Shown here: one piece after another, positions 30,557 through 43,505 of the stretch | Layout of the letters: each line of letters opens with the position of its first letter | Position numbering within the stretch: the first letter of the stretch is position 1 | DNA from: Streptomyces canus | Lineage (GTDB): Bacteria > Actinomycetota > Actinomycetes > Streptomycetales > Streptomycetaceae | DNA length: 64,000 nucleotides | Assembly (NCBI RefSeq): GCF_001514145.1 | Contig: NZ_KQ948656.1 | Coordinates: 434,001 to 498,000, forward strand | Direction: 5' to 3' | Notes under the pieces: model-generated | The model's input: the letters and a program-made list of their open reading frames with translations, nothing else | What the model was told of the DNA's origin: nothing | The model's database searches: none | Position numbers and translations under genes: made by a program

Positions 30557-31314
30557 ATGAACGCCACGACCAAGCCCACGGCCCTGGTGACCGGCGGCAG
30601 CAGGGGAATCGGCGCTGCCACCTCGCGTGCATTGGCAGCTCGCGGCTACCGCGTAGCCGTCAACTACTTCTCTCACCGCGAGGCGGCCGACCAGGTGGTC
30701 AAGCTCATCGAGGCCGACGGCGGCGAAGCCTTCGCCGTGCAGGCCGACGTGTACGACCCCATCCAGGCGGCCGAACTGCTGGAGCGCTCCGCGGTCGACG
30801 GGCGCCTGGACGTCCTTGTCTGCAACGCCGGCGCTCGCTTCACGCCCACTTCTGTGCAGACCCTCGCCTGGGACGACTTCAGGACGAAGGTGACGAGCGA
30901 ACTCGCATCCGTCTACACGCTCACCCAGCGGGCACTGGAGCTCATGGGCGCCCGAGGGCAGGGCCGGATCGTGTATGTCTCCAGCGCCGTGGCCCATGGT
31001 CCGCCGGCCCCGGGCATGACCGCCCACGGCACTGCGAAGGCCGCCCTGAACACCTTCGCCCGCTTCGTCGCCCACGAGGCCGGTCCACTCGGCGTCAACG
31101 TCAATGTCGTGGCACCTGGTTACGTCCGTACGGAGAGCAGCGCGCACATGCCGCAGGAGTTCCAGCGGCTGCTGGCGAAGAACACCCCCTGGGGCGGGTC
31201 GCGGAGCCGGAGGACGTGGCCCGGGCGATCGTGGTGCTCGTCGGTGAGGAGGCAGCCTTCGTGACCGGCGGGGTGCTCGCCGTCGACGGTGGGTACGGCC
31301 TGGCACGCCGGTAG
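30557..31314 (+). pseudogene. SDR-family oxidoreductase with frameshift in a C run
   Basis: The first 210 residues are a normal short-chain dehydrogenase (TGGSRGIGAATSRALA, VCNAGARFTP, YVSSAVAH, and APGYVRTESSAH); the usual YxxxK tyrosine is replaced by His (MTAHGTAKAALNTFARF). At about 31190, inside a run of five C, the frame is lost. The next frame gives the expected ending (GRVAEPEDVARAIVVLVGE, VTGGVLAVDGGYG) to a stop at 31314. One added C restores a full 253-residue enzyme. AAGGA precedes the ATG at 30557. A read error in the C run is as likely as a true mutation. Confidence 0.8.
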
Positions 31315-31996: not shown

Positions 31997-32028
31997 AGGC
32001 GCCGCTCGCTCCGGACCGGCGCCCCAGG

Positions 32029-32898
32029 TCATGCTGTCGTATCCCGCGCCCGCTGATACGGCGCAGCGGTCCACGACGCAAGGAAGCGCAGTCCGTCATG
32101 GGACGGGGTCCCGGGCTCAGGGGTCATGATCACGAGCTGCTGTGCCGGGTCGGCTGTCGAGGTCAGGCTGTCCCAGTCGAGAGTGAGGTCACCGGCGACC
32201 GGATGGCTCAGCCTCTTCGAGCCGACTCGCAGATAGGGCACCTGGTGGCCTGCCCACCACTGCCGGAAGTGGGCATCGGCCACCGACAGCTCGCCCACGA
32301 GTGCGGTCAACTCGGGGTCGCCAGGGCACTGGGCGGCCTCCACGCGCAGTTGGGCGACGCAGCTCCGGGCGATCGTCCTCCAGTCGGGGTAGAGCACCCG
32401 GAAGCCGGGGTGGGTGAAGAGCAGCCGGGCGTAGTTGCGCCTCTTCTCAGGTATTCGCTCGAAGTCCGTGAGCAGAGCGGCTGCCAGGGCGTTCCAGGCC
32501 AGGATGTCCATGTGCCGGCCCAGGACGAGCGCGGGGGTCCCGGTCAGTTCGTCCAGGAGACGCTTGAGTTGCGGCTGGACCTTCTGCGCCGGTCGGCGGC
32601 GCGGCGCGCACTCAACTTGCGCGGCCAGGGCGAACAGGTGGTCACGCTGGTCATCGTCGAGATGCAGGACACGAACGAGGGTGGCGAGCACCGAGGTCGG
32701 CACGAGCGCGCGCCCCTGTTCCAACCGCGCGTAGCGGTCGGTGCTGATCCCCACGAGCTGGGCGACCTCCTCCCTGCGAAGGCCTGCCACTCGCCGGGGC
32801 GCCCGGGACTCGGGCAGACCCACGGTGCGCGGGCTGAGTTGCGCCCGGCGCACCTTGAGGAATTCCCCCAGTTCGGGCAGACGCGCCTTGCTGTACAT
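32029..32898 (-). CDS. XRE-family regulator with MmyB-like ligand-binding domain
   Basis: A 289-residue regulator. Residues 1-80 are an XRE HTH (LPELGEFLKVRRAQLSP; VAGLRREEVAQLVGISTDRYARLEQGR). From about residue 100 is the MmyB-like ligand-binding domain (MDILAWNALAAALLTDF, RNYARLLFTHPGFRVLYPDW, ending PSHDGLRFLASW), which binds small hydrophobic molecules or fatty acids in this family. The ATG at 32898 begins the conserved N-terminus. Upstream at 32930-32990 is a sequence related to the elements near 33435, 37495 and 38590. It is paralogous to 36524-37393 and to the dead copy at 33010-33398. Confidence 0.88.
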   Translation of the reverse strand: MYSKARLPELGEFLKVRRAQLSPRTVGLPESRAPRRVAGLRREEVAQLVGISTDRYARLEQGRALVPTSVLATLVRVLHLDDDQRDHLFALAAQVECAPRRRPAQKVQPQLKRLLDELTGTPALVLGRHMDILAWNALAAALLTDFERIPEKRRNYARLLFTHPGFRVLYPDWRTIARSCVAQLRVEAAQCPGDPELTALVGELSVADAHFRQWWAGHQVPYLRVGSKRLSHPVAGDLTLDWDSLTSTADPAQQLVIMTPEPGTPSHDGLRFLASWTAAPYQRARDTTA

Positions 32899-33009
32899 AG
32901 CAGCTAGTGTCGCAGCGCTCAACCGGAAAGAGAGGGGGAGAGTTTTCTCCCAGGTTCTGGACAGCCGCCTTTGCTTTTCTTGAGTGCGCGAGGTCATGAA
33001 TGGCCGGTG

Positions 33010-33398
33010 ATCAGACGGTCGGGTCAGGTGACGCGAACGCCTACGGACGACGAGTTCCTGATCGGGATCCGCGCTGCAGGTGAGGGTGGCCACGAGGTGG
33101 CCTCCCCACCGCTGGCCGAAGTCCCTTTCCTGCGCGGAGAGTTCGCCCGCGAGTCACCGATTTCGCGCAGGTGGAGGAAGACAAGCGGCTGCGTGTCCCA
33201 TCTGCGTATGAGGGAGCCGGGCGGCGGCGTCTCGTCCCCTGCCGCCCGGCCGGCTCGAACAGATGGTCATGCTGGTGATCATCCGGATGCAGGACATATG
33301 CGAGAGCGGCCGGCACCGGCGGGGAGTGCGCCGGCTCAACTCGCCCCTCCGCACCTTGAGGAGTCTCCCCTCTCCGTCAGATGCGCGTCGCTGCTCAT
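33010..33398 (-). pseudogene. Decayed MmyB-like XRE regulator
   Basis: Fragments of the same family are visible in shifting frames. From the ATG at 33398: MSSDAHLTERG, LKVRRGELSRR, then LAYVLHPDDHQHDHLFEPAGRQ (matching the VRVLHLDDDQRDHLF block), and near 33040 TLTCSADPDQELVV (matching the C-terminal TLTSTADPAQQLVI). Most of the ligand domain is missing and the reading frame is broken several times. The promoter-proximal sequence is still alignable with the intact paralogue, so this was a tandem duplicate that died after copying. Confidence 0.7.
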
Positions 33399-33434
33399 TA
33401 CGGCCAGTCTCGCACCGCTCGGTCTGCGCGAGGA

Positions 33435-33548
33435 GGGTAAGGATTCCTCCCCTGGATAAGCCATTCTCAGGATGGAATTCTCCCCTTTGCGGGCTCGCAC
33501 GAGGAGGGCAGGGTCGACCCGCGACGAGCAACCGGTACCAGCCCACGG
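33435..33548. repeat. 114-bp upstream repeat, copy A
   Basis: This stretch, starting GGGTAAGGATTCCTCCCC, is about 90 percent identical over 114 bases to 38590-38703 and shows weaker similarity to 37495-37570 and 32930-32990. It lies between the dead XRE gene and the hydrolase gene at 33628. Its position upstream of small redox/hydrolase genes suggests a shared promoter or regulator-binding region. Confidence 0.75.
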
Positions 33549-33627
33549 GGTAGCAATTACTTTCTGGACGTCACCGGGCGAAATCAGGGGACAATTTCTT
33601 ACCCAGCGCCACTAAAGGGCAGGTACC

Positions 33628-34539
33628 ATGGTCGAAACTGTTTCGTTCAGGAACAAGGAAGTAGAGATTGCGGGACATCTCCATCTGCCAGAGAACTTCA
33701 GCGAAGAAAAGAAATATCCGGCACTCGTCGGAATTCATCCGGCCGGCGGCGTAAAAGAACAGACCATCGGCCACTACGCCAAAAGGCTCGCTGAGCACGG
33801 ATTCGTCACCGTCGTCTACGACTCCTCCTACCAAGGAGCGAGTGGTGGTGAACCCCGTCTCCTGGAAGACCCGACGACCCGGGTGGAAGACGCTCGCTGT
33901 GCAGCCGACTTCCTCACCACTCTTCCGTTCGTCGACTCCGAGCGCATGGGAGTCATCGGCATGTGCGCCGGCGGCGGATACGCGATCAGCGTGGCCCAGA
34001 CCGAACGTCGCTTCAAGGCAGTCGCTACGGTCAGCGCAGCTCCGATGGGTGAGGGTTCCAGGGGCTTCCTGGGGCATCTGTCCCCGGTGGCCGAGCAGAT
34101 CGGCACGCTGGAAATGGTCGCCCAGCAGCGCACGGCGGAAGCAGGAGGAGCACAGCCTCTCTACGCCCCGTTCGTCCCGGAAACGCTGGAGGAGATCAAC
34201 GAAAGCACGCCGGACCTCCTGCGCGAAGGGTACGACTACTACAGGACACCGCGAGGCCAGCACCCCAATTCGAAGGGCCGTTTCCTGCTGACCAGCATGG
34301 ACAAGATGTTCGCCTTCTCGGCGTTCGACCAGATCCCGGAACTGCTCACCCAGCCGCTGCTCCTCATCGCAGGGAGCAAGGCGGACACAAAGGTGTTCAG
34401 CGACCAGGCCTACGAGCTTTCCAAGGGACCGAAGGAGTTGTTCGTCGTCGACGGCGCGACTCATATCGCACTGTACGACGTGCCTGAGTACGTGGATCAG
34501 GCGATCCCCAAGATGGCGGAGTTCTTCGCCGTCCTTTAG
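33628..34539 (+). CDS. Alpha/beta hydrolase, dienelactone-hydrolase-like with Cys nucleophile
   Basis: A 303-residue alpha/beta hydrolase (YcjY/DLH-like). The nucleophile elbow is IGMCAGGGYAI, placing a Cys where Ser is usual, as in dienelactone hydrolases. The acid is probably Asp in AGSKADTKVF, and the His is in DGATHIALYD. The oxyanion region is VGIHPAGGVKEQT. The start of the gene is noticeably more AT-rich than its neighbours (about 33640-33730), hinting at foreign origin. It follows copy A of the upstream repeat by 79 bases. Confidence 0.75.
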   Translation: MVETVSFRNKEVEIAGHLHLPENFSEEKKYPALVGIHPAGGVKEQTIGHYAKRLAEHGFVTVVYDSSYQGASGGEPRLLEDPTTRVEDARCAADFLTTLPFVDSERMGVIGMCAGGGYAISVAQTERRFKAVATVSAAPMGEGSRGFLGHLSPVAEQIGTLEMVAQQRTAEAGGAQPLYAPFVPETLEEINESTPDLLREGYDYYRTPRGQHPNSKGRFLLTSMDKMFAFSAFDQIPELLTQPLLLIAGSKADTKVFSDQAYELSKGPKELFVVDGATHIALYDVPEYVDQAIPKMAEFFAVL

Positions 34540-34572
34540 TGGTCCACAGATTTTTCGAGGAGCCCGATCGAC

Positions 34573-35172
34573 ATGTCCCATCCGGACCGCACCACCATCG
34601 CCATTGCCTTTCATTCGGGCTACGGCCACACAGCTGTCGTCGCCGAAGCCGTGGCGCGTGGCGCGGCGGGAGCCGGCGCCGAGGTGGTCTCGATCTCCGT
34701 GGACACCATCACCGACGAGCAGTGGCCGTAACTGGATGCCGCGGACGCCATCATCTTCGGTGCCACCACATACAGGGGGACCGCCTCCGCGGCCTTCCAC
34801 GAGTTCGCCGAGGCCAGCAGCAAGCGCTGGTTCTCGCATGCCTGGGCGGACAAGCTTGCCGCGGGCTTCACCAATTCCGGTGCCAGGAGCGGCGACAAGT
34901 CGTCCACCCTGGGCTACTTCGCCACCTTGGCCGCCCAGCACGGCATGCACTGGATCAGCCTGGGCCTGATGCCGGGCTGGGATTCCACCACGGGCAGCGA
35001 GGACGACATCAACCGGCTGGGGTTCTTCATGAGTGCCGGCGCCCAGAGCCCGACCGACGCCGGTCCGGAAGCGGTCCACAAGTCGGACATCGCCACCGCC
35101 GAGCATCTGGGTGCGCGCGTCGCGCGCCAGGCCGCGGTCTTCCGCGCCGGACGGGCCGCTCTCGCCGCCTGA
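34573..35172 (+). pseudogene. NAD(P)H:quinone oxidoreductase / flavodoxin-like, in-frame stop
   Basis: A flavodoxin-fold protein of the WrbA/NQO type. The FMN loop is IAFHSGYGHTAVVAEAVA, and the second half has AIIFGATTYRGTASAAFHEFAE, FTNSGARSGDKSSTLGYF and HWISLGLMPGW. A TAA at 34729-34731 (codon 53) interrupts DEQWP/LDAADA, and the frame is open on both sides to the stop at 35172. TAA is rare in this GC-rich genome, and a C-to-T change from CAA would explain it. As read, the gene is dead unless translation restarts downstream. It lies in a run with NTF2-like and DJ-1-like genes. Confidence 0.8.
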
Positions 35173-35222
35173 TCCCCAGGTCTTCTTTCCGTATCCGAAC
35201 CAGCCCCCCGCAAGGAGCAACC

Positions 35223-35615
35223 ATGTCCGACTCCCCGAGCCTCGCCCTCATCCGCCGACTGTACGAGTCCGGAATGGCCCCGGAGGTCACCAGCGAGGTC
35301 ATGGCCTCCGACCTCGTGTGGGACATCACCCCCGGCTTCCCGAACAGCGGCGTCTACCACGGTTGGGCCAGCGCGGCGCAGGACTTCTTCGGCAGGACGA
35401 TGCCGAACTACGAGTCGTTCGCAGCGGTGCCCGAGGAGTTCTACGCGGACGACGAAGGCCACGTCTTCGTGTTCGGGCACTACCACGCCGAGACCAAGAC
35501 CGGGAACAAGGCCGACGTTCGCTTCATCCACCTGTGGACCGTCCGCGACGGCAAGGCCGTGAGCATGCGGCAGGCCGCCGACAGCCACGTCCTCCAGGAA
35601 GCCCTCAAGGGCTGA
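35223..35615 (+). CDS. SnoaL/NTF2-like protein
   Basis: A 130-residue single-domain NTF2-fold protein (LALIRRLYESGMAPEVTSEVMASDLVWDITPGFPNSGVYHG; FVFGHYHAETKTGNKADVRFIHLWTVRDGKAV). The fold includes hydrolases, isomerases and small-molecule binders, and no catalytic signature is clear. AAGGAGCAACC precedes the ATG. It probably shares a transcript with the flavodoxin-like and DJ-1-like genes. Confidence 0.8.
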   Translation: MSDSPSLALIRRLYESGMAPEVTSEVMASDLVWDITPGFPNSGVYHGWASAAQDFFGRTMPNYESFAAVPEEFYADDEGHVFVFGHYHAETKTGNKADVRFIHLWTVRDGKAVSMRQAADSHVLQEALKG

Positions 35616-35639
35616 GCCCCCACCCGTTAGGAGTCACCC

Positions 35640-36338
35640 ATGGCGAAGATCCTCTTCGTGATCACCGCGTCCGACCACTGGACGCTGGCCGACGGAACCC
35701 GGCAGCCGGCCGGCTTCTGGGCCGAAGAAGCAATCGGCCCGTACCAGGTCTTCAAGGAGGCCGGATACGAGATCGCGGCCGCGACCCCCGGCGGCGTGCC
35801 TCCCACCGCTGATGCACTCAGCCTCACCGCCGAATTCAACGGCGGCGAGGAAGGCGCCCAGCGCATGCGGACCGCCCTGAGCGAGGCGACCGAGCTGGCC
35901 GAGCCGATGCGCATCGAGGACGTGACCATCGACGACTACGTCGCCGTGTTCTACCCCGGCGGCTGGGGCCCGATGGAGGACCTTCCGGACAACGCCGCCT
36001 CCGGCAAGCTGCTCACCGAGTGGCTCGCCTCGGGCAAGTTGGTGTCACTGGTGTGCCACGGCCCCGCGGCACTGCTGGCCACCGTCGGCCCGGACGGGAC
36101 GTCGCCGTTCGCCGGCTACCGCCTGACCGGCCTCTCCAACGCCGAGGAGAAGCTCAACGGTCTCGCGGACCGCGCGAAGTGGCTGTTGCAGGACCGCCTC
36201 GTGGGCGAACTCGGCGCGGACTACCGCGAGACCGAGCCGTTCGCCCCGCACGTGGAGGTGGACCGCACCCTGTACACCGGCCAGAACCAGGGCTCGGCCG
36301 TCCCCCTGGCTCAGGAACTGGTCAAGGCACTGGGCTGA
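35640..36338 (+). CDS. DJ-1/PfpI-family protein (type 1 glutamine amidotransferase-like)
   Basis: A 232-residue DJ-1/PfpI-superfamily protein. The nucleophile elbow LVCHGPAALLAT has Cys-His-Gly, and the acidic partner is probably Glu in GFWAEEAIGPYQVF. This resembles the Hsp31-type glyoxalase/chaperone group, which detoxifies methylglyoxal or repairs glycated molecules. It begins 25 bases after the NTF2-like gene with GTTAGGAG upstream, and a strong hairpin terminator ends the run. Confidence 0.85.
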   Translation: MAKILFVITASDHWTLADGTRQPAGFWAEEAIGPYQVFKEAGYEIAAATPGGVPPTADALSLTAEFNGGEEGAQRMRTALSEATELAEPMRIEDVTIDDYVAVFYPGGWGPMEDLPDNAASGKLLTEWLASGKLVSLVCHGPAALLATVGPDGTSPFAGYRLTGLSNAEEKLNGLADRAKWLLQDRLVGELGADYRETEPFAPHVEVDRTLYTGQNQGSAVPLAQELVKALG

Positions 36339-36358
36339 CAACTCAGTTGCACGCGGAA

Positions 36359-36404
36359 GAGGGCTCGGCGGCCCCCGGAACGCATTCCGGACCGCCGAGC
36401 CCTC
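36359..36404. terminator. Strong hairpin terminator
   Basis: GAGGGCTCGGCGG pairs perfectly with CCGCCGAGCCCTC, and a further CCGGAA/TTCCGG stem with a CGCA loop sits on top, separated by a small asymmetric bulge. It lies 21 bases after the DJ-1-like gene and closes the 33628-36338 run. Confidence 0.85.
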
Positions 36405-36523
36405 GTCGCTCGGCCGCCACGAGGGCTGGAACTAATACAAATCTTGATACATATCGGTAAAGCCCAACGTAGGCACGATCACTCCCCCTCACAACGCCGG
36501 GCTTCTGTGCGAGGCTGCACATC

Positions 36524-37393
36524 ATGAACCGCAACCCCCATCTGAACGAGCTGGGTGAGTTCCTCAAGGCCCGCCGTGCCGAGCTCAGCCCCTCGGAGGT
36601 CGGACTTCGCGCAGGGCAACGGCGGCGTGTGAGCGGTCTACGTCGTGAGGAAGTGGCGCTTCTCGCCGCGATCAGCACCGAGTACTACACACGCATCGAG
36701 CAGGGCCGCCTCCAGGCATCGGCCCCGCTGCTCGACGAGATCGCCCAGGTGCTCCGCCTGAACGACGACCAGCGCACCTACCTCTTCGACCTCGCGGCGA
36801 AAGAGCGGGGGCGCCCATCCGCATCGGACGAGCGCCAACAGGTGGACACACAGTTGCAGCGCATGCTGGACGATCTCACCGCCTCCCCGGCCTTTGTCAT
36901 CGGTCGGCGGACCGACATCCTGGGGTGGAACCAGCTCGCCGCCGCCCTGTGGACCGATTTCGGACACTATCCGAAACAGGAGCGCGTGTTCGTCCGGCTG
37001 CTGTTCACCGAACCCTGGATGCGCGAGCTGTACGCGGACTGGGAAGAGGTCACCCGGCTGGCCATCGCTCAGTTGCGCATGGAGAGCGCACGCTACCCCG
37101 ACGACGAGCGCCTTGCCGCACTGGTGGAGGAACTCTCCGCGCGCGACGCACAGTTCCGGCAATGGTGGACCGAACACGACGTCGCGGCGCGGGGCAAGGG
37201 CACCAAGAAGCTCCATCACCCGGTGGTGGGCGAGCTGACCCTCGACTGGAACACGCTCACCTGCGGCACGGACCCCGATCAGCACATCATCGTGTGGAAC
37301 GCCGAACCCGGATCCCCGTCCCACGACGGACTGCGCCTCCTGGCCTCCTGGGCCGCGGACCAGAAACGGACGGCGTCCGACACGGTCACCTGA
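36524..37393 (+). CDS. XRE-family regulator with MmyB-like ligand-binding domain (paralogue)
   Basis: A 289-residue protein, the same length and layout as 32029-32898. HTH: LNELGEFLKARRAELSPSEVGL and VSGLRREEVALLAAISTEYYTRIEQGR. Ligand domain: TDILGWNQLAAALWTDF, RLLFTEPWMRELYADW, and the end PSHDGLRLLASWAADQ. The upstream 60 bases can be aligned with those of the other paralogue (CTCCCCCTC block about 40 bases before the start). It lies just before the MDR gene at 37619, which carries a related upstream element, and probably controls it. Confidence 0.9.
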   Translation: MNRNPHLNELGEFLKARRAELSPSEVGLRAGQRRRVSGLRREEVALLAAISTEYYTRIEQGRLQASAPLLDEIAQVLRLNDDQRTYLFDLAAKERGRPSASDERQQVDTQLQRMLDDLTASPAFVIGRRTDILGWNQLAAALWTDFGHYPKQERVFVRLLFTEPWMRELYADWEEVTRLAIAQLRMESARYPDDERLAALVEELSARDAQFRQWWTEHDVAARGKGTKKLHHPVVGELTLDWNTLTCGTDPDQHIIVWNAEPGSPSHDGLRLLASWAADQKRTASDTVT

Positions 37394-37494
37394 GCCCTCT
37401 CCCACGTGCGCCTAATGCGGCCTCTGTCACGAGCAAATTCACCCTCGGGATGAGCCTGCCTTTGGCTGCCCTCTTGCTCTCAACGGCATGCCGG

Positions 37495-37570
37495 GGAGGG
37501 AGGGATTCATCCCCCCTATCACCGCATCCCAGCCAAGAACCTTCCCCTTTTCCTGGCGCGCGCGGGGCGG
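37495..37570. repeat. Diverged copy C of the upstream element
   Basis: GGGAGGGATTCATCCCCCC and a following TTCCCCTTTTCCTGGCG can be aligned with the 114-bp repeats at 33435 and 38590 at roughly 60 percent identity. It sits about 50-120 bases before the MDR gene at 37619, the same placement as the other copies. Confidence 0.5.
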
Positions 37571-37618
37571 AAATGTCGGACACCTCAACGACCGCATGCC
37601 GAGCAATGAGGTAATTCG

Positions 37619-38551
37619 ATGAAGGCTGTAGGTTTCACTGAATTCGGCGGGCCGGAGGTGCTTCAGATCCTGGAGCTGCCCACGCCCGAGGCCGGTCCGG
37701 GCGAGGTGCGCATCCAAGTGCACGCCGCGACCGTCAACGCGGTCGACGCCCTCCAGCGCAGCGGACCCGCCCGGTCGCCGGACGCCCAGCCGCCGTTCGT
37801 TCCCGGCATGGATGCCGCAGGGGTCGTGGATCAGATCGGCCCGGGTACGAGCACGGATCTGAGCGTCGGCGACCGCGTGATGGCGATCGTGCTCCCCGAC
37901 GGCGTGCACGGCGCCTACGCCGAGCAGGTCGTGGTCCCGGTGGAGTCGGTCGTCCGCGCCCCCCATGGCGCGACCGACGCGCAGGCCGCGTCGCTGCCGA
38001 TGAACGGCCTTACCGCACGCCTGGCCCTGGACACACTCGGCCTGGAACCCGGCCAGACCCTCGCGATCACCGGAGCGGCCGGCGCGGTCGGCGGCTACGC
38101 CGTGCAGCTGGCCAAGGCGGACGGGCTGCGCGTGGTGGCCGACGCCTCGGACCAGGACGAGACCCTGATCAAGGAACTCGGTGCCGACGTCGTGCTTCGT
38201 CGCGGCGCCGAGTACCCGGACCGGGTACGCCTGGAAGTCCCGGAGGGTGTCGACGGACTCGTCGACGCCGCGTCGCTCGGCGCCCTCTGCGCTCGAGCGG
38301 TCCGCGACGGCGGCCGGGTGGTGACACTGCGCGGCTACGACGGCCCAGGCGAGCGAGACGTCGTGTTCGAGCCGGTCGTCGTGTTCAGCTACGTCAAGGA
38401 GCACGCCAAGCTCGACCAGCTCCGGCAGCAAGCGGAGCAAGGCGGCATCACCCTCCGGATCGCGAAGACCTTCCCAGCGGAACAGGCCGCCGAAGCGCAC
38501 CGGCTCCTCGCCGCGGGCGGTGTGCGGGGTCGGCTGATCCTGACGTTCTGA
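37619..38551 (+). CDS. NADP-dependent MDR oxidoreductase
   Basis: A 310-residue zinc-free MDR enzyme. EFGGPEVLQILELPTPEAGPGE, NAVDALQRSGPA, and a Rossmann motif GAAGAVGGYAVQLAK are present, with the ending EAHRLLAAGGVRGRLILTF. It is the quinone oxidoreductase type, reducing enones or quinones. GAGGTAATTCG precedes the ATG. It follows the XRE regulator in the same direction and carries copy C upstream. Confidence 0.87.
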   Translation: MKAVGFTEFGGPEVLQILELPTPEAGPGEVRIQVHAATVNAVDALQRSGPARSPDAQPPFVPGMDAAGVVDQIGPGTSTDLSVGDRVMAIVLPDGVHGAYAEQVVVPVESVVRAPHGATDAQAASLPMNGLTARLALDTLGLEPGQTLAITGAAGAVGGYAVQLAKADGLRVVADASDQDETLIKELGADVVLRRGAEYPDRVRLEVPEGVDGLVDAASLGALCARAVRDGGRVVTLRGYDGPGERDVVFEPVVVFSYVKEHAKLDQLRQQAEQGGITLRIAKTFPAEQAAEAHRLLAAGGVRGRLILTF

Positions 38552-38589
38552 TCCGAGGGGCGTGCGGGCACAGGGGCAGCGGACGAGGG

Positions 38590-38703
38590 GGGTAAGGATT
38601 CCTCCCCTGGATAAGCCAATCCCAGGATGGAATTCTCCCCTTTGCGGGCTCGCACGAGGATGGCAGGATCGATGCGCGACCGGCAACTGGTACCGGTCCA
38701 CGG
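38590..38703. repeat. 114-bp upstream repeat, copy B
   Basis: About 90 percent identical to 33435-33548 over the full 114 bases, with the differences concentrated in the second half. It lies between the MDR gene (ends 38551) and the carboxymuconolactone decarboxylase-family gene (38873), in the same orientation as copy A relative to its downstream gene. Confidence 0.75.
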
Positions 38704-38872
38704 AGAAACATTCACCCAAAACAGGCTGGGATCGCCAACCCCAGGAAGTAATTACGACGTCTTCACCGCCTTCGCCTTCGACGCGGCCCACAGGGTGACC
38801 ACATCTCCTGGAGAACCCTCTGGCCAAGGGCCCGGCCTGAATCCCTGAAACACACGCTAGGAGCATCACCCC

Positions 38873-39205
38873 ATGTCCGAACGGAAGAAGTTCGCGCCGC
38901 CGGCGATCCAGGAATTCGCCCCCAAGCTCGCGGGGGTGACCGACACGGTCCTGTTCGGCGACATCTGGGAGCGCCCGGGTCTGTCCCCGCGCGATCGCAG
39001 CCTGGTCACGGTCACCGCTCTCGCCGCCCTGTACCGGAACGACCAGCTCGGCTTCCACCTCGGCAAGGCGCTGGAGAACGGCGTGACCAAGGACGAGCTG
39101 ATCGAGGCCATCACCCATCTGGCCTTCTACGCCGGATGGCCCAACGCCATGACCGCGATGAACCAGCTCAAGGAGATCGTGGACAAGGCCGACCAGTCCG
39201 GCTGA
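38873..39205 (+). CDS. Carboxymuconolactone decarboxylase-family protein
   Basis: A 110-residue protein of the CMD/AhpD fold (FGDIWERPGLSPRDRSLVTVTALAALY; LGKALENGVTKDELIEAITHLAFYAGWPNAMTA). It lacks the CxxC pair of peroxidase-type AhpD, so an antioxidant disulfide role is unlikely; a lactone decarboxylase or oxygenase-free redox role is possible. Copy B of the repeat lies 170 bases upstream. A remnant of a cupin gene, a frequent partner of this family, follows it. Confidence 0.85.
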   Translation: MSERKKFAPPAIQEFAPKLAGVTDTVLFGDIWERPGLSPRDRSLVTVTALAALYRNDQLGFHLGKALENGVTKDELIEAITHLAFYAGWPNAMTAMNQLKEIVDKADQSG

Positions 39206-39251
39206 GGATCCTCCGCCCGCCTGCCCCCGCGCGGCGCGGGCTCGCCCCCCC

Positions 39252-39371
39252 TACAGGCACCGGTTCGTGATCCACCTCGCTCTCTGGGAGACGGACGACA
39301 CCTCCTGGCTCGAACACGTCGCGGACGACGACCACAACGGCCCGCGCTTCAGCCCCCGTACGCGTCCCTGA
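39252..39371 (+). pseudogene. C-terminal remnant of a cupin gene
   Basis: The frame from 39252 reads YRHRFVIHLALWETDDTSW and then LEHVADDDHNG before a stop. This resembles the last 35-40 residues of small cupins (HLALWE, EHVTDEEY) that are often encoded next to carboxymuconolactone decarboxylase-family genes. No upstream start, ribosome site or cupin core is present, so only the tail survives. Confidence 0.45.
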
Positions 39372-39404
39372 CACCACGACAGACACACGAGTTGGGAAGG
39401 CATC

Positions 39405-40421
39405 ATGCGAGCGACCATCATTCACGCGCCGGGGGACATCCGGGTGGAGAACGCCCCGGAACCGAAGATCACGGCATCGACGGACGCGGTGATCCGGACA
39501 GTCGCCACCTGTGTGTGCGGCTCCGACCTGTGGAGTTACCGCGGTGTCCTGCCGGTCGCCGAGGCGCAGCCGATCGGCCACGAGTACGTCGGTGTCGTCG
39601 AGGAGGTCGGCAACGACGTCTCGAGCGTCAGGCCGGGCCAGTTCGTCATCGGTTCCTTCGTCGCCTCCGACAACACCTGTCCGATCTGCCAGGCCGGCTA
39701 CCACACCTCCTGCCGGCACGCGCAGTGGGTGAACGGCGCCCAGGCCGAGTACGTTCGCGTCCCTCTCGCCGACGGCACCCTGGTCACCGTTCCGGAGCAG
39801 CCGACCGAGGCGCTGCTCCCGAGTCTGCTGGCCCTGTCCGACGTCATGGGCACCGGCTGGTACGCCGCCAAGGCAGCCGAGGTCAAGCCCGGTTCGACGG
39901 CCGTAGTCGTCGGTGACGGCGCCGTGGGCCTGTCCGGCGTCATCGCCGCGAAGGAACTGGGCGCCGAACGCATCATCGCCATGAGCCGACACGAGTCCCG
40001 ACAGAAGCCGGCCCTGGAGTTCGGCGCCACCGACATCGTCACCGAGCGGGGCGAGGAAGGCGTCGCCCGCGTCAAGGAACTGACGAACGGCATCGGCGCC
40101 GACTCGGTCCTCGAGTGCGTCGGCACCCAGGAGTCGCTGCACCAGGCCCTGCAGTCCACCCGCCCCGGCGGCAACGTCGGCTTCGTCGGCTTCCCGCACG
40201 GCTCGCGGATCGACGGCCAGGAGCTCTTCTTCTCCCACGTCGGCCTGCGCGGTGGCCCCGCCCCCGTGCGCGCCTACCTTCCCGACCTGATCGACCGCGT
40301 CCTCAGCGGCCGTATCAACCCGGGCAGGGTCTTCGACCTCACCCTGTCGCTGGACGAGGTCGCCGAAGGCTACAAGGCCATGGACGAACGCCGCGCCATC
40401 AAGACACTGCTGCGTCCGTGA
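39405..40421 (+). CDS. Zinc-dependent alcohol dehydrogenase (MDR)
   Basis: A 338-residue zinc MDR enzyme. The catalytic zinc Cys and His-Glu are in ATCVCGSDLWSYRG and PIGHEYVG, the structural lobe is NTCPICQAGYHTSC, and the Rossmann motif is VGDGAVGLSGVIAAKELGA. It probably oxidises an alcohol or reduces an aldehyde with NAD(P)H. The ATG follows GGGAAGGCATC. It leads a short plus-strand run with the DUF2255 and antiporter genes. Confidence 0.88.
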   Translation: MRATIIHAPGDIRVENAPEPKITASTDAVIRTVATCVCGSDLWSYRGVLPVAEAQPIGHEYVGVVEEVGNDVSSVRPGQFVIGSFVASDNTCPICQAGYHTSCRHAQWVNGAQAEYVRVPLADGTLVTVPEQPTEALLPSLLALSDVMGTGWYAAKAAEVKPGSTAVVVGDGAVGLSGVIAAKELGAERIIAMSRHESRQKPALEFGATDIVTERGEEGVARVKELTNGIGADSVLECVGTQESLHQALQSTRPGGNVGFVGFPHGSRIDGQELFFSHVGLRGGPAPVRAYLPDLIDRVLSGRINPGRVFDLTLSLDEVAEGYKAMDERRAIKTLLRP

Positions 40422-42486: not shown

Positions 42487-42545
42487 ACGGGAGTCCGACA
42501 CCCGGCCTTGCCCCAAGTCCCCCAGGAGAAGGGATCCCTCCTGCC

Positions 42546-43505
42546 ATGTCCTCCGGCCTCATCGACGTCCACGCCCACCTCCTGCCCGACTTCTACGTCC
42601 AGCAGGCGGCAGCGGCGGGCCACGCGCACCCCGATGGCATGGGCGGCTGGCCGTCGTGGTCCGTGAAAGCACACCTGGACCTGATGGATCGCAACGGCAT
42701 AGAGACCGCGATGCTGTCCATGTCCTCCCCCGGCGTGCACTTCGGCGACGACAAGGCGGCACGGCTCCTCGCCCGGCGCGTCAACGAGTACACCGCCGAA
42801 CTGATCCGAGACCACCCCGGCCGCTTCGGCAACTTCGTGTCGCTTCCCCTGCCGGACGTGGACGCCTCGTTGGAGGAGATCGCCTTCGCCTACGACGAAC
42901 TCGACGCCGACGGCGTGGCCCTGCTGACCCACACGCACGGTGTCTACCTGGGCGACCAGCGCCTCGAACCGGTCTTCGCGGAACTCGACCGCCGCCGGGC
43001 CGTGGTCTTCCTGCACCCCACCTCACCGGTGGGTTGGGAACAGTCCGCACTCGGTCGACCACGGCCGATGGTCGAGTACATCTTCGACACGGCCCGCACC
43101 GTCACGGACCTGGTGATGGCGGGCGTCGTGACGCGCTATCCCCGCATCCAGGTGATCGTTCCGCACTGCGGTGGCGCGGTACCCGTCCTGGCCGACCGCA
43201 TCAACGAGTTCATGAGACTGTTCGTGCCCTCGGAGAACACGCCCGCCAAGGACGCGGTGCAGCAACTACGAGGCCTGTACTACGACATGGCGGGCACAGC
43301 CTTCCCACGCCAGGTCCCAGCGCTGCTGAAGCTCGTCGATCCGGACCGCGTGCTGTTCGGCAGCGACTACTGCTGGACCCCTCCCCCACTGGCCGACGCC
43401 CACATCGCGGCGATCGACGCGGCCGAGTCACCGGTGGAGGGAACCACCTGGCGGTCTCTGACGACGGCCAACGCCCAGCGCCTGTTCCCGGGGACGGCGC
43501 GGTAA
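42546..43505 (+). CDS. Amidohydrolase 2-family protein (ACMSD-like)
   Basis: A 319-residue metal-dependent TIM-barrel enzyme. IDVHAHLLPDFY carries the HxH metal pair, VFLHPTSPVGW a further His, VIVPHCGGAVPVL another, and LFGSDYCWTPP the Asp. This matches aminocarboxymuconate-semialdehyde decarboxylase and related aromatic decarboxylases or hydrolases. The reaction is unknown. AGGAG is 17 bases before the ATG, and the sequence between contains a CTCCT complement, so the ribosome site may be masked. Confidence 0.82.
   Translation: MSSGLIDVHAHLLPDFYVQQAAAAGHAHPDGMGGWPSWSVKAHLDLMDRNGIETAMLSMSSPGVHFGDDKAARLLARRVNEYTAELIRDHPGRFGNFVSLPLPDVDASLEEIAFAYDELDADGVALLTHTHGVYLGDQRLEPVFAELDRRRAVVFLHPTSPVGWEQSALGRPRPMVEYIFDTARTVTDLVMAGVVTRYPRIQVIVPHCGGAVPVLADRINEFMRLFVPSENTPAKDAVQQLRGLYYDMAGTAFPRQVPALLKLVDPDRVLFGSDYCWTPPPLADAHIAAIDAAESPVEGTTWRSLTTANAQRLFPGTAR

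Follow-up and report, generated by a model that had tools for sequence, protein, structure and literature searches.

A 64 kb stretch of the 11.57-Mb genome of Streptomyces canus (hereafter the window, whose positions are used for all coordinates) contains a cluster of redox and detoxification genes interspersed with genes for MmyB-like (MLTR) regulators of the XRE type. The cluster includes an alpha/beta hydrolase gene, MDR (a zinc-type dehydrogenase) and CMD (carboxymuconolactone decarboxylase-family), and its promoters carry an 18-bp dyad, GGGGA-N8-TCCCC. We consider it probable that the cluster is a local regulon of its MmyB-like regulators, in which dimers of a single MLTR clade recognise the dyad and most likely act as activators. 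The site, its association with MLTR genes related to the two intact regulators R1 and R2, its positions, its spacing and its conservation are read directly from the sequence, and from these we infer MLTR binding of the dyad, activation and a class of ligand. The MLTR family itself is already known, large and little studied; the window adds a conserved dyad at fixed spacings for one of its clades.

R1 (32029-32898, minus strand) and R2 (36524-37393, plus strand) were identified by their open reading frames and Pfam matches and, for R2, by a structure model. Both genes encode proteins of 289 amino acids, 53% identical to one another, with an N-terminal XRE-type helix-turn-helix (HTH) domain (Pfam HTH_31, 51.3 bits in R1 and 30.4 bits in R2, cut-off 27) followed by an MLTR_LBD domain (PF17765, 204.8 and 198.9 bits, respectively, cut-off 26.3). 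A third MLTR gene, R0, survives as a frameshifted and partly deleted remnant (33046-33398, minus strand), made up of dispersed blocks in changed frames that have 79-93% nucleotide identity per block to the intact R0 genes of two relatives (L048 and L052). These are the two intact paralogues and the dead copy that a preliminary description of this DNA had recognised. The predicted model of R2 (pLDDT 84.6, pTM 0.75) had MltR (PDB 3PXP) as its best Foldseek match (E 1.2e-11, TM 0.50), and a profile search with R2 matched the same structure (E 1.1e-9), to which R2 is 21% identical, although a search of the PDB with R2 as a single sequence returned nothing at E 0.001. Judged by the identity of R2, which reaches 94%, the closest relatives with a name belong to Streptomyces, for example S. 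europaeiscabiei and S. phaeochromogenes.

Potential operators were scored with an 18-position matrix built from 20 sites that precede R1, MDR and hydrolase genes in other genomes, with element and R2 sites excluded. The seven best sites in the window, with scores of 14.4-23.1, all fell inside the cluster, and the next best scored 9.5. The highest of them is the R1 operator (TGGGAGAAAACTCTCCCC, 32935-32952, minus strand, 23.1), which lies 54 nt before the R1 start codon and is accompanied by a -10-like GACACT at 32906-32911. It was followed by the first dyad (O1) of each of the two copies, A and B, of a longer element (20.1 each), by a site before the hydrolase gene (33587-33604, plus strand, 20.0), by O1 of the MDR promoter (37497-37514, 19.5) and, at 14.4 each, by the second dyad (O2) of both copies. 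The MDR operators (37497-37547, plus strand) also include a weak O2 at 37530-37547 (4.0), and a -10-like AAATGT is at 37571-37576. The matrix gave 8.4 or more in 1% of 600 background sequences and 15.5 at most, so that five of the cluster sites were above this maximum and the two O2 sites below it. In relatives, the same type of dyad was found upstream of R1, R2, MDR and the hydrolase gene. The common core given in the preliminary description, GGGGnnAGGATTCnTCCCC, is real and is O1 of the element, the general form of the site being GGGGA-N8-TCCCC instead. The diverged relatives of the element that it had placed before the MDR gene and a regulator correspond to 37497-37514 and 32935-32952, and the site at 33587-33604 is a further one that it lacked. 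Its proposal of a small regulon with a regulator among the targets agrees with the concentration of the top seven sites in the cluster, the R1 promoter included.

The longer element occurs twice in the window, on the plus strand. Copy A (33429-33548), found by repeat search, alignment and matrix, has O1 at 33435-33452 and O2 at 33468-33485, a -35-like TTGCGG and a -10-like CAGGGT at 33509-33514. Copy B (38584-38703), found by repeat search and matrix, has O1 at 38590-38607, O2 at 38623-38640 and a -10-like CAGGAT at 38664-38669, with no adjoining regulator. The copies are 5.2 kb apart and 90% identical over 120 bp (87% ungapped over 132 bp), which bears out the conserved repeat reported earlier before the hydrolase and CMD genes. 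A search of the genome for more copies, as had been proposed, yielded A and B as the sole strong ones, plus three further matches at E 0.38-0.71; the pattern AGGATTCNTCCCC had three matches in the genome, two of which are the element. Among 392 genomes of the genus, 33 matched the element at E 0.001 or better and 17, this genome included, at E below 1e-7; most of the other 16 matched a short part only, and of these just one (G104) was taken further. In all, 24 stretches were fetched, 22 of them from other genomes, and 25 element copies were examined.

For 18 of the 25 copies, the distance between the start of the copy and an MLTR frame or remnant on the opposite strand is 29-44 nt, a count that includes the R0 remnants beside copy A and in L042, and 16 of the 25 have a CMD gene at most 1.6 kb away on the other side. 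The presence of an MLTR frame or remnant on one side and of CMD on the other marks the element as the divergent R0/CMD promoter region. The remaining seven copies (copy B of the window, the B copy of L042, L038, L039, L047, L050 and L058) do not begin at such a distance. In the aligned copies conservation was concentrated in the two dyads, which are 33 bp apart, and then in TTGCGG and CAGGGT. A scan of 32000-39500 against Rfam gave no structured-RNA match at the gathering threshold.

The usual gene order in relatives is hydrolase, flavodoxin-like, SnoaL-like, DJ-1-like, R2 and MDR, then R1 and R0 in reverse orientation, the element, sometimes a second hydrolase gene, CMD and the dehydrogenase gene zADH2. 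A derived order with two element copies is common to the window and one other genome (G140, locus L042). Copy B is closer to the B copy of G140 (95.8%) than to copy A (90.0%), and copy A is no closer to the A copy of G140 (85.8%) than it is to B. Tandem duplication with later losses, and perhaps gene conversion, would explain these identities. The suggestion that the regulon was built by duplication therefore needs to be divided: the 120-bp element was duplicated, but sharing of the operator did not arise mainly from element copying, as the dyad precedes most related MLTRs, among them genes at unlinked loci and genes of Curtobacterium and Rathayibacter. In one genome (G254), which contributed two near-identical loci (L045 and L046) to the 25 copies, the entire cluster was present twice in opposite orientations, at approximately 1.0 and 10.5 of 11.5 Mb, as expected for the terminal inverted repeats of a linear chromosome.

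In a tree of 58 MLTR rows, R0, R1, R2, two unlinked regulators of this genome (L063 and L068) and two genes labelled X formed one clade with support 100/100. The genome has 35 MLTR matches, of which 34 were scored using script-assigned start codons (C13:105747 was without an alignment and a broken copy on C17 was without a start codon). The dyad is present at three of the clade's four representatives in this genome (R1 23.1, L068 18.7 and L063 14.7), the fourth being R2, and none of the 30 other scored MLTRs was above 7.1. We had considered a site common to all MLTRs and rejected it based on these 30 scores. The gene divergent from L068 is a zADH2 homologue (75%) and that divergent from L063 is a hydrolase homologue (40%), and in relatives R0 frames are divergent from CMD; in the window itself R2 is not divergently arranged, and the only back-to-back neighbours of R1 are the R0 remnant and element A.

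A further 73 regulators were picked from other loci by similarity rather than tree placement (those of L183-L191 being only 36-45% like the queries), some of them from matrix-training genomes, with R2 promoters outside the training set. Fifty-one of them scored at least 10, and in 40 of these 51 the site lay between -58 and -50 relative to the start codon. R2-like regulators (57-60%) from three Curtobacterium loci and one Rathayibacter locus had GGGCAGNGNTCTCTSCCC dyads at -40 to -46, and in all four an MDR homologue adjoined on the opposite strand. At five loci of Amycolatopsis and Saccharopolyspora, MLTRs of 36-39% identity had dyads scoring 12.4-13.7 at -39 to -50. The association of dyad and regulator is strongest in the clade, and it may not be confined to it. 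Four clade-like regulators (L123, L124, L125 and L127), all beside a hydrolase gene, had a variant dyad, GGGACA...GGCCC, at -53/-54, which may represent a specificity variant.

The dyad is situated about 54 bp upstream of most R1/R2-related MLTR genes and, in five promoter classes, at a recurrent distance from a candidate -10 hexamer. The interval from the end of the dyad to a hexamer NANNNT, which was spotted by eye first and counted afterwards, was exactly 23 nt in 9/9 R1, 10/10 R0, 7/9 R2 and 20/23 CMD promoters and in all seven MDR promoters extracted from nine loci; the CMD misses were L055 and two loci (L058 and L060) in which O1 had been taken instead of O2. For the 51 scoring regulators, NANNNT was at offset 23 in 30 and in at most 11 at any other offset. 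If the hexamer is taken as -12 to -7, the centre of the dyad would be near -44.5, and the R1 and R2 mRNAs would be nearly leaderless. The -35 sequences vary among the promoter classes. Secondary sites were 15-17 or 31-34 bp from the best site in 57 of 66 cases, where shuffling gave an expectation of 0.34. The analysis used 43 of 52 promoters, and its count took adjacent offsets of a single site separately and orthologous promoters repeatedly.

Based on these features, we propose that dimers of the one MLTR clade would bind GGGGA-N8-TCCCC in small arrays, spaced by 16-17 and 32-34 bp, directly 5' of the -35 region. The dimer nearest to the promoter, centred near -44.5, could contact the sigma subunit and thereby compensate for poor -35 sequences. 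Lambda repressor does this at PRM, where a dimer activates via sigma and makes up for a poor -35. The PAS-like domain would bind a small molecule, perhaps of a carbonyl, lactone or quinone type, and the ligand-bound regulators would most likely activate their own genes together with hydrolase, MDR and CMD. Activation fits the observations because of the fixed distance, the weak -35 sequences and the arrays of sites. In this strain, R0 has decayed, the R2 site has weakened and the hydrolase gene, without a core promoter of its own, follows one of the two copies of the R0/CMD element.

Several observations weigh against this proposal. The R2 site itself is weak in this genome, two clade members (the X genes of L044 and L054) had no site upstream, and 22 of the 73 further regulators scored below 10. 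The dyads at distant MLTRs of 36-39% identity make the restriction to the clade an imperfect one. The 23-nt rule did not hold at the loci of Curtobacterium, Rathayibacter, Amycolatopsis and Saccharopolyspora. In eight relatives the hydrolase dyad closest to the promoter, judged by eye, ended about 11 nt (one helical turn) further up from a plausible -35. The counts over orthologues are not independent of one another. The bare dyad is not specific, as a genome search with GGGGANNNNNNNNTCCCC gave 20 sites and its reversed control 13, and a genome-wide scan with the 18-mer sequence model alone did not reach significance (best E 2.06). The R1 and MDR promoters held ranks 1 and 3 in that scan, and rank 2 was C26:98732, with no MLTR near. 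The sequence at C26:98732 (L109, near 2733) is GGGGAGAAGTCTCTCCCC, with similar stretches close by. This site would fit binding of the dyad by some other regulator that controls MLTR genes and enzymes alike. We think such a regulator improbable, as the dyad goes with R1/R2-related MLTRs in other genera and at unlinked loci whose partner genes differ, yet is missing from the other MLTRs of the same genome. It could also be argued from the two 90% copies so near to one another, and from the derived order shared with G140, that the 120-bp repeat is mobile, or a plain duplication, and has no regulatory role. We give this almost no credence: each genome has one or two copies at the locations inspected, most copies keep their distance from an MLTR frame or remnant and their proximity to CMD, and conservation centres on dyads and hexamers, with the dyad shared by the promoters of other genes. 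A mobile repeat found beside unrelated genes, which the preliminary description had named as the outcome that would overturn its view, is not what was seen, since there are two strong copies and the same neighbourhood for most copies examined.

The same regulators and operator could instead work by repression, with the proteins blocking RNA polymerase near the -35 region and leaving on ligand binding, so that the genes would be derepressed jointly. The dyad does adjoin the -35 region, and an XRE regulator of Corynebacterium, MsrR, represses itself and a divergent gene according to the accessible text on it (PMC7532634), a further point against activation, although MsrR is set beside the MLTRs by description only. 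A repressor would not require an exact distance, yet 23 nt recurs across promoter classes with differing -35 sequences; the extra sites are upstream and not over the start; and MmyB is described, in the accessible text of PMC3406030 and PMC10717218, as a positive regulator. We consider repression possible, if rather unlikely. Returning to activation by the MLTR clade, we speculate, tentatively and with considerable doubt, that members of the clade act as phase-locked activators through one old operator code (arrays with a period of about 16.5 bp, 23 nt from the -10), on which paralogous sensors with diverging ligand domains would converge so that a single set of detoxification promoters integrates several chemical signals. 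The similar dyads in Curtobacterium, Rathayibacter, Amycolatopsis and Saccharopolyspora suggest that the site, but not the 23-nt rule, extends past Streptomyces.

The state of the cluster in this strain differs from that in relatives. The R2 operator (36470-36487, plus strand, with a -10-like GAGGCT at 36511-36516) is degraded, scoring 3.1 where its orthologues score 6.8-23.9. Given this weak site and the dead R0, the set may be governed mainly by R1 here. In comparison with eight relatives, the hydrolase upstream region has kept the dyad at 33587-33604, its one remaining operator, and is missing the promoter-proximal dyad and the -35/-10 sequences. With the core promoter of the hydrolase gene itself gone, element A, with its hexamer at 33509-33514, is the likely promoter of that gene in this strain. 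A hydrolase promoter lacking any operator was also considered and was rejected when the matrix found the site at 33587-33604.

The enzyme genes of the cluster are all on the plus strand. The alpha/beta hydrolase (33628-34539) is dienelactone hydrolase-like by Pfam, and its nearest NCBIfam entry, the UilS lactonase, was far under its cut-off. It is followed by a flavodoxin-like gene (34573-35172, from comparison with relatives) and by genes for a SnoaL-like protein (35223-35615, Pfam) and a DJ-1/PfpI-like protein (35640-36338, Pfam and NCBIfam). Codon 53 of the flavodoxin-like gene is an in-frame TAA (34729-34731), and its relatives in L042 and L052 align across nearly the full length. MDR (37619-38551) is related to quinone oxidoreductases and, like CMD (38873-39205), was assigned by Pfam and NCBIfam. 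The zinc-dependent dehydrogenase zADH2 (39405-40421) matched NCBIfam families, all under cut-off; the matrix scan of the window found no operator upstream of it, and it is possibly read together with CMD. As the NCBIfam matches of the window enzymes were all under the curated cut-offs, only their broad families are sure. Outside the cluster, an SDR gene (30560-31314) has an apparent frameshift near 31195, with the conserved C-terminal end running on in a different frame, and an amidohydrolase-like frame at about 42534-43505, 3' of an antiporter gene, resembles by eye the divergent MLTR partner in Amycolatopsis and Saccharopolyspora (L186 and L187).

The same types of enzyme recur beside related regulators elsewhere. 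Thirty loci were fetched for relatives of L068 and compared with the window proteins, and 22 of them held a homologue of at least 40% identity (hydrolase in 11, zADH2 in six, CMD in three and flavodoxin-like or DJ-1-like in two); one of the remainder had weak matches only and seven had none. The loci of the genome's other MLTRs had at most generic SDR, MDR and TetR matches of 26-46%. The recurrence of hydrolase, zinc dehydrogenase and CMD is a hint of a shared substrate class. MLTRs are numerous in this genome, and the site, the spacing rule and the target set open their binding, mode of action and ligand to direct test; the operator definition could also help to predict the targets of related regulators.

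Among known systems, lambda repressor at PRM is comparable as a dimer of the same broad HTH type with a dyad just upstream of the -35, but its sensor domain and site spacing differ, and the likeness is one of analogy only. MltR (Caur_2278, 3PXP) shares the domain layout of R2 as well as being its best structural and profile match; the accessible text of Xu et al. (2012, PMC3406030) describes the MLTR family as combining an HTH with a PAS-like domain and reports that MltR was crystallised with myristic acid. MltR is the closest relative of solved structure, and its myristic acid is the one observation in favour of the lipid- or quinone-like signal that the preliminary description had suggested for the MmyB domain. 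The same text notes that the family genes of S. coelicolor are mostly divergent from SDR/MDR or antibiotic-related genes, and that the MLTR genes of the pairs SCO4944/SCO4945 and SGR_6891/SGR_6892 are divergent from a zinc dehydrogenase gene, both members of the S. griseus pair being A-factor-induced. These pairs resemble L068 and its zADH2 homologue in gene arrangement. A literature search covering open-licence papers found no operator for this clade and no MLTR motif beyond the MmyB B-boxes, and a 2025 survey of XRE motifs (PMC12565409) may hold the present one. MmyB, which belongs to the same domain family as R1 and R2, acts on pseudo-palindromic B-boxes according to the accessible text, but in an antibiotic cluster (that of methylenomycin) rather than in a redox-gene cluster as here. 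Whereas the accessible family account of Xu et al. (2012) gives no operator other than these B-boxes, the window and its relatives provide a defined dyad, its spacing and three regulator genes that share it.

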